The notes below the pieces were generated by a model. That model was not told where the DNA came from. It saw only the letters and a program-made list of their open reading frames with translations, and made no database searches. From assembly GCF_003584685.1 (NCBI RefSeq), contig NZ_AP018549.1, forward strand, positions 620,001 to 684,000: a stretch of 64,000 nt of DNA, read 5' to 3'. Below are positions 37,903-53,778 of the stretch, in pieces (position 1 is the stretch's first letter; every line of letters begins with the position of its first letter). This stretch comes from Lactobacillus paragasseri. GTDB taxonomy: Bacteria; Bacillota; Bacilli; Lactobacillales; Lactobacillaceae. A program made the translations under genes and the position numbers.

Positions 37903-37976
37903 GGTTTGGTAGCTCAGCTGGATAGAGCAACGGTCTTCTAAACCGTGGGTCGTGAGTTCGAATCTCACCCAAATCA
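37903..37976 (+). tRNA. tRNA-Arg (anticodon TCT)
   Basis: Complete cloverleaf: acceptor GGTTTGG / CCAAATC, discriminator A, D-arm GCTC/GAGC, anticodon loop CTTCTAA (TCT, reads AGA), T-arm GTGAG-TTCGAAT-CTCAC. Likely attachment gene of the prophage. Confidence 0.95.
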
Positions 37977-37983
37977 CTGATAT

Positions 37984-38054: not shown

Positions 38055-39158
38055 TTAAGCATTTTTCTTAAGATTGTTAAAGACAGAATTAACTTTAGAG
38101 TCAATTTTTTTGCGATGTTTTTCAAATGTTTCTGCATATATTTCCTCTGTAGTTTTAGTGGTTGCGTGTCCTAATCTTTGAGCAATATCATAGGTGCTTA
38201 CATCAGCACTTAGTAAAATTGCAACTTGAGAATGTCGAAGCGAGTGGATATGATATCCTTCTCGTTTAATTTTTAATTCAGCCAAGTTATCTCGTAAAGT
38301 TCGATTTAAACTCTTTGAATTAGGAAAGCCATTTCGTGCTTTTGACCAAAAAACTTTTTCTGGATCATTTATCTTTAGTTCTTTGATTTTTTTCATTATA
38401 AAATTTGGAACTCCAATTGGACGAACAGAAGACTCATTTTTAGTTGGACCGTACTCTTTTTGAGAATAAACCCAAGAACGTCGAACTTTAATAGTATTAT
38501 CCTCAAAGTTCAAATCGTCCCATTTAAGCCCAGCCATTTCGCTTTCCCTAAGTCCAGTGGTCAATCCTAATAAGATCATATAGCTACCGGGAAAATTAGG
38601 ATTAGCAGCGTTATAGAGATGATTAAGTAGTAACTTTATTTCATCATATTCAAGATAGTCCACTTTTAAATCATGATCTTTATTAAATGCCAACTGGATA
38701 TTCTCAGTAAAGTCTCTTGTAATAATTCCATCTTGAATTGCTGACTTAACACAAGTGCGGATAGCTCTATGCAATTTTTTTACTGAATTTTTTGCGTGAT
38801 TTTCCCCAAATTCATTAATAATTTTTTGATATTTGGAGCGATTTATATTTTTAATTTTGGCAGCTCCTAATAGCTTCCTTATTCTTTTTCCTTCAAGATT
38901 GTATTCAATAAGGGTATTAGGGGCGACATTTCCTTTCTTATAGGTCTTAACCCAATCATCATAACAATTTGCAAAAATGGGGTTTTCTGTAACATCTATG
39001 CCATCATCTATTTCTACTGCAAGCTTATTATCCGCTTTTTCAGCTTCACGTTTTGTTTTAAAGCCCCGTCTGGTTAGATAATGCCGTTTACCATCAATAT
39101 CATACCAAGAGCGTTTTACATACCACTTTTTGGATTTTTTATCTTGATAAACTCCCAT
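38055..39158 (-). CDS. int: Prophage tyrosine-family integrase
   Basis: 367 residues. N-terminal arm-binding domain (KKSKKWYVKRSWYDIDGKRH), core-binding domain (about 60-160), and catalytic domain with R204 (TGLRESE), K240, H305 and R308 (HSLRH), H331 (LGHA) and nucleophile Y341 (EIYAETF). Catalyses integration and, with a directionality factor, excision. Its start overlaps the end region of the small gene at 39160-39297 (one base apart), so both are on the leftward lysogeny transcript. Confidence 0.95.
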   Translation of the reverse strand: MGVYQDKKSKKWYVKRSWYDIDGKRHYLTRRGFKTKREAEKADNKLAVEIDDGIDVTENPIFANCYDDWVKTYKKGNVAPNTLIEYNLEGKRIRKLLGAAKIKNINRSKYQKIINEFGENHAKNSVKKLHRAIRTCVKSAIQDGIITRDFTENIQLAFNKDHDLKVDYLEYDEIKLLLNHLYNAANPNFPGSYMILLGLTTGLRESEMAGLKWDDLNFEDNTIKVRRSWVYSQKEYGPTKNESSVRPIGVPNFIMKKIKELKINDPEKVFWSKARNGFPNSKSLNRTLRDNLAELKIKREGYHIHSLRHSQVAILLSADVSTYDIAQRLGHATTKTTEEIYAETFEKHRKKIDSKVNSVFNNLKKNA

Positions 39159-50154: not shown

Positions 50155-50685
50155 GTGTATCAGATTGACTTAGGATTACAGCCAAATTTAAGAGCTACAG
50201 CTAAAAGGGTGGATAAGTTCCTGACTATTAATTTTCAGAGCTATCTTAATTTAGCTGGCTTACACCGTAATCAACTTACAAGCCCTCAATTATCATTTGC
50301 ACCGGGATCAACAAATAAGAATGGTGTTGAGAAGAATTTCATTGACGAAGCACAAGACGACATTGATGTTGCTGATCCTGTGAGAAAGGTCTGTGCAGCG
50401 ATTTATCGGACGATGGATAATTGCACTGATACAGCTTTAAAGCCTTACAGACGTATCTTAATTGGAACATACATTGACCAGCTACGTATCGTTGATGTAG
50501 CAGCTACAGTTAATCTGTCGACTAGGTCAATTGATACTAAGAAGATTAACGCACAATGCGAGTTCGCTGATCGTTGGCTTTACTGGAAAAGATATTTCGG
50601 CGTTGATGATTTACCCGACCTACGAGTGTTCAGCCAAAAAGTAAAAACAGTATGGCCGGATAAAATTAAGATTCGGAAAAATTAG
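50155..50685 (+). CDS. arpU: ArpU-family phage late-gene transcription activator
   Basis: 176 residues from a GTG after GAGGGAGTG. The C-terminal part (ILIGTYIDQLRIVDVAATVNLSTRSIDTKKINAQ) has a sigma-like helix-turn-helix; ArpU/RinA-like proteins end the early module and switch on late genes at the terminase promoter. The 11-bp-phased repeats start four bases after its stop. Confidence 0.85.
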   Translation: MYQIDLGLQPNLRATAKRVDKFLTINFQSYLNLAGLHRNQLTSPQLSFAPGSTNKNGVEKNFIDEAQDDIDVADPVRKVCAAIYRTMDNCTDTALKPYRRILIGTYIDQLRIVDVAATVNLSTRSIDTKKINAQCEFADRWLYWKRYFGVDDLPDLRVFSQKVKTVWPDKIKIRKN

Positions 50686-50934: not shown

Positions 50935-51049
50935 TAGCCTGATTAAATTCAGGCGATACAAATTCCTCTAAATGACTTTTATTTTTGGTTTTTGGCTTAC
51001 AATTCTTTTATTTTTACTTTTTCTTATTTACTTTTTTTATCTGATACAG

Positions 51050-51074
51050 GCAATCGGGTTCGAATCCTGATTGC
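51050..51074 (+). other. Isolated T-arm-like hairpin
   Basis: GCAATCGGG-TTCGAAT-CCTGATTGC has a consensus T-loop. No matching 5' acceptor or D-arm is found upstream. Confidence 0.45.
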
Positions 51075-51213
51075 TTGATAACCTAGGCGGTAGTTCATTG
51101 TTGATTATTGTATATAATAGTTTGCCTAGGGAGATCCTATGCCATGACCCTCAACGGTTTCGAGGAGAGCGTGGGAAGAGCTGGGTAGTTGTTGGCTGGA
51201 CCGCAGCAGCAAC

Positions 51214-51307
51214 TGCCGTGGGTAGAGTGGCACAATTTGAAATTTAGAAAGAAAAGAGGAATTTTCTTTCACAACTATGTAGCGGGGTTCAATTCCTCGC
51301 CTGCCCA
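51214..51307 (+). other. Degenerate tRNA-like element (D-arm and T-arm/acceptor)
   Basis: A D-arm-like TGCC-loop(GTGGGTAGAGT)-GGCA at 51214-51232, a 9-bp hairpin at 51247-51270, and a T-arm CGGGG-TTCAATT-CCTCG (51283-51299) followed by CCTGCCC and A. The 5' acceptor does not pair well, so it is not scored as a working tRNA. Confidence 0.4.
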
Positions 51308-51426
51308 TTGCCTGTCGGAAAGCAGGCGTAAAAATAATATTATTCAGATCACGAATATATTTTGTTTGTCTGATTTTAATTTACAGAATTGCATCTGGTT
51401 TAGCTCTGTACCTAACAGAGCATTCT

Positions 51427-51498
51427 AGGACTATAGCCAAATGGTAAGGCATCAGGTTTTGATCCTGTGTATTGTTGGTTCGAGCCCAGCTAGTCCTA
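51427..51498 (+). tRNA. Prophage tRNA-Gln (anticodon TTG)
   Basis: Complete cloverleaf inside the phage: acceptor AGGACTA / TAGTCCT (perfect), discriminator A, D-arm GCC/GGC with TGG in the loop, anticodon loop TTTTGAT (TTG, reads CAA), T-arm GTTGG-TTCGAGC-CCAGC. The first anticodon-stem pair is mismatched (T-T). CCA is not encoded. Confidence 0.88.
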
Positions 51499-51694
51499 TA
51501 GATCAGCTCTATATTTTTTGAAACATTTTTGGATAGAGCTAATCTAAATATTTTACCTTCTAAAATGGTTGATTGTTTTTAGCGGTTAGCGGTAAGGCGA
51601 GCATCATGGCAAACGTGACTCCGTATTAAATCTAAAAGTGAGAAGCCACGGCAATCGTAAAAGCGTAGCATAATAGACGCGGCTTTCCTATTTT
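51499..51694. other. Non-coding stretch between tRNA-Gln and the queT remnant
   Basis: Contains an interrupted inverted repeat AGCTCTAT / ATAGAGCT (51505-51546) and a hairpin-like AGCCACG / CGCGGCT (51652-51685) followed by a T-rich tail that could end the tRNA transcript. No protein-like frame of note. Confidence 0.4.
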
Positions 51695-51716
51695 GGTAAC
51701 TTAGCTCAGTGGGTAG
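51695..51716 (+). other. tRNA 5'-half-like sequence abutting queT
   Basis: GGTAACT-TA-GCTC-AGTGGGTAG reads exactly like positions 1-22 of a bacterial tRNA (7-base acceptor strand, TA at 8-9, D-stem GCTC, D-loop with GGG), but the rest is missing and coding sequence of queT follows. Confidence 0.6.
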
Positions 51717-52005
51717 TCCATTAGGTCCAATTGATATGTTAGTTGGAACGTCAGCAACTTTTATTACTGCTGTCATGATTTATTTGATTAATAAACACAT
51801 TTCCAATTTAAAAATGAAGTTAGTGGTAAGTACCCTAATTCCTACTTTTATCGGAATGTTACCGATAGCCTTGGAACTTCACTATATTCAACATGTACCA
51901 TTCTGGTTAACCTATGGAACATCCATGCTAGGTGAATTTGGTTCATGCTTAATTTGTGCTATTTTGGTTTACTTTTTATCTAAAAGAATTGATTTATCAA
52001 AATAA
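51709..52005 (+). pseudogene. queT: 5'-truncated queT (queuosine-precursor ECF transporter S-component)
   Basis: The frame reads SPLGPIDMLVGTSATFITAV near its start, then IALELHYIQHVPFWLTYGTSML and GEFGSCLICAILVYFLSKRID: the C-terminal part of QueT, which is usually about 160-175 residues. Roughly the first 70-85 residues are absent; a stop codon lies just upstream in frame (TAA at 51698-51700). A GTG (51709) or ATG (51736) could start a 98- or 89-residue, three-helix product, but ribosome binding sites are poor. The 5' break is joined to a tRNA-like 5' half at 51695-51716. Confidence 0.7.
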
Positions 52006-52011
52006 TTATTT

Positions 52012-52041
52012 AGGTTACTCAAGGAAGTAGCCTTTTATTTT
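52012..52041 (+). terminator. Terminator after the queT remnant
   Basis: AGGTTACT / AGTAGCCT stem, 6-base loop, then TTTTATTTTT. It may be the original queT terminator, carried along. Confidence 0.7.
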
Positions 52042-52070: not shown

Positions 52071-52586
52071 GTGAGCAATGAAAAAGGCGCTGGTAGACCG
52101 TGCAAAATTGATCAAAAGATGATTGACGAAATGAAGCAATATATGATTGCTGGACTAACGCTTAAAGACGCCTGTTCTTTGCTTGAAATTGATACGTCTA
52201 CATGGCGTAGGTTCGAAAAGAAAAATCCTAAATATGCCGTCAAAAGGAAGAAATGGCAAAGCATGTTAAAAACACAGGCTTTGATAAACATTGCTGGTCA
52301 AATTATGAAAGAGAATGATGCCGGTTGGTCAGCATATTTACTTAAACGAGAAATGACTTTAGAAGAGAAAAGAGCTACTAATGCCTTGGCTAGAGCACAA
52401 GCCAAAGAGTCCAGAGCGAGAGTTAAAAATATTGAAGCTGATACACGTATTAAAGAAGCTAAGGCAATTGTTGCTGAAAGATTAGGCATGGAAGACAATG
52501 AGCAACTTGAAGAAGTGCTTAATAAATTGACTAAGGAGGCAGGAAAAGTTGGCACTGATAAATCTACTAACGAAGAAACAGATTAA
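52071..52586 (+). CDS. terS: Terminase small subunit
   Basis: 171 residues from a GTG. N-terminal helix-turn-helix (KIDQKMIDEMKQYMIAGLTLKDACSLLEID, TSTWRRFEKKNP) for DNA-site recognition and a long helical, Ala/Arg/Glu-rich C-terminal part for oligomerisation. Recognises phage DNA for packaging. Overlaps the large subunit by 38 bases. Confidence 0.85.
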   Translation: MSNEKGAGRPCKIDQKMIDEMKQYMIAGLTLKDACSLLEIDTSTWRRFEKKNPKYAVKRKKWQSMLKTQALINIAGQIMKENDAGWSAYLLKREMTLEEKRATNALARAQAKESRARVKNIEADTRIKEAKAIVAERLGMEDNEQLEEVLNKLTKEAGKVGTDKSTNEETD

Positions 52587-53778
52587 GGTGCTGCAATCCT
52601 ACCTTAACGATGATTGGAAGTACTTGATCTTAAATGGTGCTGTCCGTGCTGGTAAGACAGTGATAGATAACTATCTTTTCTTACTAGAGCTTAAACGAAT
52701 TAAAAAGCTTGCTGAGATCGAAAAAGAACCACATCCTCAATATATTCTTGCAGGGTATAGTTCAAATTCAATCTATACAAATGTCATCTCATCAATTGAA
52801 AATCAATTCGGAATAGTGATGAAGACCGACAGACACGGGCATTATCATCTTTTTGGCATTGATATAGTGCCAGCTTATACAGGATCAGTTCGAGGAATTG
52901 GTGCTATTCGTGGTATGACTTCTTACGGGGCTTATATAAACGAAGCAAGTTTAGCCACGCATGAAGTTTTCCAAGAAATAGTGCAACGTTGTTCTATTGG
53001 ATCAGCAAGGATTATCTGCGACACAAACCCTGATATTCCTACACACTGGCTTAAGACAGATTACATTGATAATCATGATCCTAAGGCAAGGATTAAGGCG
53101 TTTAGTTTTACAATTGACGACAACACTTTTCTTTCAAAAGATTATGTTGAAGCTTTAAAGGCTGCTACTCCAAGAGGAATGTTTTATGACCGTGGTATTT
53201 TAGGTCAGTGGGTTACAGGTGACGGAATTGTCTACCAAGATTTCAATAAAGATACAATGGTAATTCCTAAAAATCGTGTTCCAGATGGTTTAGATTACTA
53301 TGTTGGCGTTGACTGGGGTTATGAACACCCTAATCCGATCATCTTATTAGGCGATGATAAGGACGGTAACACTTACGTCTTGGAAGACTACACACAGAAG
53401 CACAAGTTCATTAATTACTGGGTTAAGGTTGCACAGAACTTACAGACAAGGTTCGGGCGCAATCTTATTTTTTATGCTGATTCGGCAAGACCTGATAACG
53501 TGAACGAGTTTCAATCCAACGGGCTGAACTGTATCAACGCAAATAAGAATGTGTTGCCCGGAATTGAATGCGTAGCAAGGAAAATGCGTGAGGGAAAGTT
53601 CTATGTGGTTGATACAGCGTCAAGTGGCTTACTTGATGAGATATATCAATATGCTTGGGACGAAAGTACAGGGCTCCCACTCAAAGAAAATGATGTAAGA
53701 CACAACGACAGGCTAGACGCTATTAGATATGCAATTTATAGCAGAAACAAGAAGGGAGGTTTCATACCTTGGAATTAG
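52549..53778 (+). CDS. terL: Terminase large subunit (PBSX family)
   Basis: 409 residues from a TTG, nine bases after AGGAGG. Walker A GAVRAGKT (30-37), ATPase coupling region, and a C-terminal RNase H-like nuclease beginning YYVGVDWGYEHPNPI. Translocates and cuts DNA. Translationally coupled to terS and the portal gene (overlap 10 bases). Confidence 0.93.
   Translation: MALINLLTKKQIKVLQSYLNDDWKYLILNGAVRAGKTVIDNYLFLLELKRIKKLAEIEKEPHPQYILAGYSSNSIYTNVISSIENQFGIVMKTDRHGHYHLFGIDIVPAYTGSVRGIGAIRGMTSYGAYINEASLATHEVFQEIVQRCSIGSARIICDTNPDIPTHWLKTDYIDNHDPKARIKAFSFTIDDNTFLSKDYVEALKAATPRGMFYDRGILGQWVTGDGIVYQDFNKDTMVIPKNRVPDGLDYYVGVDWGYEHPNPIILLGDDKDGNTYVLEDYTQKHKFINYWVKVAQNLQTRFGRNLIFYADSARPDNVNEFQSNGLNCINANKNVLPGIECVARKMREGKFYVVDTASSGLLDEIYQYAWDESTGLPLKENDVRHNDRLDAIRYAIYSRNKKGGFIPWN

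Follow-up and report, generated by a model that had tools for sequence, protein, structure and literature searches.

How did the 5' part of a tRNA come to run directly into the 3' part of a queuosine-precursor transporter gene, queT, inside a prophage of Lactobacillus paragasseri, and was any of this DNA taken from the host? The window, that is, the whole 64,000-nucleotide stretch that was analysed, contains a prophage of about 37.5 kb integrated at a tRNA-Arg(TCT) gene. The left attachment site is this gene itself (37903..37977, forward strand), which is adjoined by the integrase gene (38055-39158, reverse strand), and the right attachment repeat, 90 bases comprising the 3' part of tRNA-Arg(TCT) and its flank, lies at G000:C1:695433-695522. 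The upstream border of the region of interest is the gene for an ArpU-type late transcription activator (50155..50685, forward strand; 98% to KC5a orf27), the same-position homologue of which is annotated as 'transcriptional activator' in Lj771 and Lj965. On the downstream side are the open reading frame of the terminase small subunit, terS (52071..52586, forward strand), and the gene of the large subunit, terL (52549..53778, forward strand; 97% to that of phage jlb1), so that the placement of the junction between ArpU and terminase within a prophage, as originally predicted, is confirmed. TerS is itself a mosaic, with an N-terminal part of 115 amino acids that is 39% identical to TerS of the QueT-bearing phage locus L019 and a C-terminal part of 56 amino acids that resembles those of Lj771, jlb1 and G018 (75-77% to the latter two).

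The interval between ArpU and terS comprises, in this order, a conserved noncoding stretch, an intact phage tRNA-Gln(TTG) gene (51426..51499, forward strand; ARAGORN and Rfam), the leader and the junction. This tRNA-Gln takes the upstream position in the phage tRNA cluster, and the order tRNA-Gln followed by tRNA-Phe is the same in prophage Lj771. Two further structures were observed upstream of tRNA-Gln. The predicted fold of positions 51219-51306 (z -2.45) has stems resembling those of the acceptor and the anticodon, together with a T-arm. ARAGORN and Rfam call no tRNA there; the segment, part of a stretch conserved in KC5a and others, may be a phage tRNA that has degenerated or that lacks the D-arm. 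The second structure, at 51047-51078 (GGCAATCGGGTTCGAATCCTGATTGCTT; z -5.5), is a strong hairpin of 12 bp that carries a T-loop and resembles the T-arm and acceptor half of a tRNA standing alone; it is present as a single copy in the genome.

The 22 bases at 51695..51716 (forward strand; GGTAACTTAGCTCAGTGGGTAG) correspond to the acceptor strand and the start of the D-arm of a phage tRNA-Phe(GAA), the remainder of which is missing. They are identical to the phage tRNA-Phe(GAA) at 21 of 22 positions in Lj771, 20 in Lj965 and 19 in JNU_P11, and at no more than 15 of 22 positions to the other tRNAs compared, which bears out the view that they represent positions 1-22 of a tRNA. Directly before them is a leader of approximately 43 nucleotides (51652..51694, forward strand) that is found directly 5' of intact tRNA genes in four related prophages; in blastn it matches G018, G069 and Lj928 at 83-93%, in each case immediately upstream of intact tRNAs, and is included in a 72% match to G059. 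The identity with tRNA-Phe and the phage leader, taken together, identify the left fragment as phage DNA. No complete tRNA is called at the junction by ARAGORN or by Rfam, even at a permissive E-value, and a complete cloverleaf with the GAA anticodon is absent, the 22 remaining bases having no fold better than those of shuffled sequences; nor does the leader region, 51645-51694, form a stable structure by itself (z +0.7).

From position 51712, the window is in frame with QueT from approximately codon 66 onward, and alignment to the L019 and L029 relatives delimits a queT 3' part at 51712..52005 (forward strand), comprising 97 codons plus the stop codon, i.e., the last two thirds of the gene, with some 65 N-terminal codons missing. 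The presence of a C-terminal QueT part directly behind the tRNA piece is thus borne out: the fragment matches the Pfam family PF06177 with E=2e-14 and 54.4 bits, against a family cut-off of 33.7. The match covers columns 57-141 of 141, whereas full-length relatives of 162-164 amino acids span columns 1-141, so that the fragment is not a complete S-component of approximately 160 amino acids. In a tree built from the 96 shared columns, the window copy groups with L019 (support 96/85), then with L029 (91/76) and L092 (92/77), the support for the latter two groupings being moderate; all three are phage-type loci, and the window copy falls outside the chromosomal QueTs. Consistently, it is 66% and 63% identical to phage QueTs located beside DpdA and terS, versus at most 51% to the chromosomal QueTs compared.

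The join itself is at 51715..51716 (forward strand). Across it, tRNA-Phe reads ..GGTAGAGC.. and queT reads ..AGYCCNYTNGG.., and the corresponding codons are CAA AGC CCA in L029, ACA AGT CCG in L019 and GGT AGT CCA in the window. With these relatives aligned, the previously suggested GGTAGT homology at the join is not supported; the two sides have in common at least, and in this comparison only, 'AG', which indicates illegitimate joining with about two bases of homology. The exact junction sequence has no match in viral contigs and is known from one genome only. Beyond the fragment, a block conserved before terS (51999..52041, forward strand; blastn and terminator scan) includes a terminator hairpin at 52012-52033 (-8.9 kcal/mol, z -2.7). 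The terminator is therefore real, as proposed, but it is not the original terminator of queT: the same block is present just 5' of terS in G018 (86%) and Lj771 (82%), both of which have no queT at this position, and it belongs to the phage pre-terS DNA. The sequences on either side of the junction are thus normal phage DNA in normal order, and only the middle is missing.

What the middle might have contained is apparent from phages that carry a complete queT before terS. The gene order in the prophage of G068 (loci L019 and L064, L019 being a Lactobacillus MAG) is ParB, DpdA, QueT, two small open reading frames, terS and terL, with a tRNA-Trp gene approximately 1.2 kb upstream of ParB. The same order, with ParB split into two open reading frames and QueT followed directly by terS and terL, is found in L029, a 39-kb circular 'plasmid' of Limosilactobacillus mucosae (NZ_CP058957.1), and, with other genes between QueT and terS, in L059 from Lentilactobacillus. 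With its genes for terminase, portal and minor capsid proteins, the L. mucosae element resembles a phage in circular form or a phage-plasmid. The DpdA proteins of these relatives match PHROG 887, 'queuine tRNA-ribosyltransferase' (E down to 1e-34), and, distantly, the annotated DpdA of mycobacteriophages, while Pfam and NCBIfam offer no name for them. Neither the window nor the whole genome contains a DpdA gene; of the cassette, the phage-clade transporter before terS and terL is present as a fragment.

A search with a DpdA alignment yielded 104 distinct loci, 90 of which have a ParB-like gene directly upstream of DpdA. A precursor transporter is found downstream of DpdA in 86, belonging to the YhhQ/QPTR type in 75 and to QueT in 11; the remaining 18 have neither, some being cut by contig ends or having QueC instead. 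Pfam confirms Vut_1 (YhhQ) and QueC in example loci. QPTR and QueT are the two known families of queuosine-precursor transporters (PMC11130926); that both are found at this position behind DpdA is the strongest indirect argument for a transporter that feeds DpdA. Two loci show other arrangements: in a Lactobacillaceae prophage (L060, 4122-6903), ParB, DpdA, YhhQ and QueC precede terS, a cassette that combines transport with the last preQ0-making enzyme, and in L057 (4755-5606) the N-terminal part of ParB is fused in frame to a DpdA without its N-terminus, followed by QueT, a structure that either arose by deletion or is a fusion of natural origin.

The position between the last tRNA and terS is variable among phages of L. 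gasseri and L. johnsonii. In Lj771 and JNU_P11, the tRNA closest to ParB on its upstream side is tRNA-Phe, at a distance of 383 and 415 bp, respectively. A ParB of the same family as that of the cassette occupies this position in jlb1, JNU_P11 and Lj771, but in place of DpdA-QueT it is followed by a TAGT-type glycosyltransferase in jlb1 and JNU_P11 and by a DNA methyltransferase in Lj771, ParB with a methyltransferase being found in G018 as well. The slot thus exchanges whole DNA-modification kits, namely a glycosyltransferase, a methyltransferase, or DpdA plus a precursor transporter, each headed by a ParB-like gene. The junction scar in itself reflects gene decay of an ordinary kind at a variable position; of greater interest is the ParB-DpdA-QueT cassette.

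Taken together, these observations make it very probable that the junction was left behind when an illegitimate recombination within a phage genome removed ParB and DpdA between tRNA-Phe and queT. Between the tRNA cluster and terS, the ancestral prophage would have had a full-length queT as well as genes for a ParB-like protein and a DpdA-type transglycosylase. Most likely, QueT and the ECF transporter core of the host would have imported a 7-deazaguanine precursor, which DpdA would have swapped for guanine in phage DNA, protecting it from restriction; such a gene set probably serves many phages in taking up an unusual base for their DNA. A break at about base 22 of tRNA-Phe, the last tRNA gene, would then have been joined to about codon 66 of queT through the microhomology of about two bases, eliminating the 3' part of tRNA-Phe, ParB, DpdA and the 5' end of queT. 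We infer a loss of about 2.0 kb, made up of 52 bases of the tRNA, a spacer of about 400 and the 1551 bp from ParB, inclusive, to the join codon of queT in L019. tRNA-Phe and ParB-DpdA-QueT do not occur together in any sequenced relative found here, and the ancestor had to be pieced together from several phages. Alternatively, non-homologous recombination between two phages, one with tRNA-Phe and one with QueT and terS, could have produced the junction in a lineage that never had the complete cassette. The mosaicism of these genomes is compatible with such an event, the two halves of TerS described above pointing to a QueT phage and to jlb1/G018, respectively. However, the fragments follow one another as they would in a single ancestral locus (tRNA-Phe as the last tRNA, then the cassette, then terS), which makes a single deletion the simpler explanation, and no observation positively requires two parents; accordingly, we consider a two-phage origin rather unlikely. 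It would in any case be a sub-case of the same loss of ParB and DpdA, differing in the number of parents.

The remaining alternatives are far less probable. The original prediction envisaged that, through aberrant excision or illegitimate recombination, the phage had taken up part of a chromosomal queT of the host together with a piece of a host tRNA. The existence of an illegitimate junction, with a tRNA on one side and a 5'-truncated queT on the other, is indeed supported, and QueT in Lactobacillaceae is mostly chromosomal (249 of 398 genomes matched). The capture from the host, however, fails on the comparison with the host's own genes: neither a DNA search nor a protein search of this genome revealed a second QueT, and among 75 Lactobacillus genomes QueT is found only here and in G068, where it lies beside phage terminase genes in that genome's own prophage, so that none of the 75 showed a chromosomal QueT. 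The searches of the host genome and of the genus thus reject the host gene as the source, and the fragment is closer to phage QueTs adjoining DpdA and terS. The tRNA piece, for its part, is phage tRNA-Phe with a phage leader, and a host tRNA was rejected as its origin by a genome pattern search that found no further copy with up to three mismatches. Host capture is therefore largely refuted, and we give it very little credence. Given that the tRNA-like piece is only 22 bases long and is not called by ARAGORN or Rfam, one could also regard it as a chance match within the region upstream of a phage queT. The near-complete identity with the Lj771 tRNA-Phe, the single occurrence of its 15-nucleotide core in the window against 0.07 expected even when two mismatches are allowed, and above all the leader and the synteny refute this notion, the probability of which is negligible.

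There is, finally, the question of whether the remnant could encode a functional, shortened membrane protein under selection. A mechanical open reading frame of 98 codons starts with GTG at 51709 and is open throughout, and the window QueT has a short terminal branch in the tree (0.096 changes per column). Yet no ribosome-binding site is visible before this GTG, an in-frame TAA is located 5' of it at 51697, and the N-terminal third of QueT is absent. The short form was seen in no other phage found here: the relatives have 162-164 amino acids and none is short, so that the 98-residue protein does not represent a full-length, conserved phage family, and scans with the QueT fragment, the QueT alignment and TerS returned no relatives. 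Recent loss would also explain the open frame, and a selected short protein appears quite unlikely. In the absence of both a start signal and the N-terminal third, the queT remnant that resulted from the proposed deletion is most likely a pseudogene, now ending at the phage's own pre-terS terminator; the short branch and the open frame suggest that its function was lost recently.

Use of the imported base in tRNA depends on the enzyme TGT. A search for TGT (PF01702) was negative in all 75 Lactobacillus genomes and positive in 14 of 14 control genomes, and the genus appears to be devoid of queuosine in tRNA. The genome studied here encodes neither TGT nor DpdA but has EcfT-type proteins that could, in principle, be used by an S-component. 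On balance, we lean toward a scenario in which Lactobacillus phages bring their own QueT, employ the host ECF core to import a 7-deazaguanine made by other gut microbes and use DpdA to insert it into phage DNA, an ability that the prophage in the window would have lost recently. A QueT cassette in a genus without detectable TGT offers a way to test whether phages can scavenge, from their surroundings, a DNA base precursor that is not used in host tRNA.

Modification of phage DNA with 7-deazaguanines by DpdA is known, and some of the respective phages carry a YhhQ transporter (Hutinet et al. 2019, PMC6884629). The complete relatives described here are similar in that a DpdA-type transglycosylase adjoins a transporter of queuosine precursors; the QueT of these relatives, an ECF S-component, and the ParB-like gene in front are not mentioned in the text of that paper. 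Among the papers covered by a literature search, none was found that pairs DpdA with a phage QueT. An annotated phage-borne QueT exists in Streptococcus phage Dp-1 (HQ268735) and is 31% identical, over 97% of the length, to the L. mucosae phage QueT. At the time of its description, Dp-1 had the most complete queuosine pathway reported in a phage (PMC4342423); by comparison, the cassette considered here is salvage-only, and its copy in the window is truncated. Unlike the known DpdA systems, the window retains only the 3' part of the transporter gene, DpdA being gone, and the locus is a decayed form of an already known type of phage 7-deazaguanine system.
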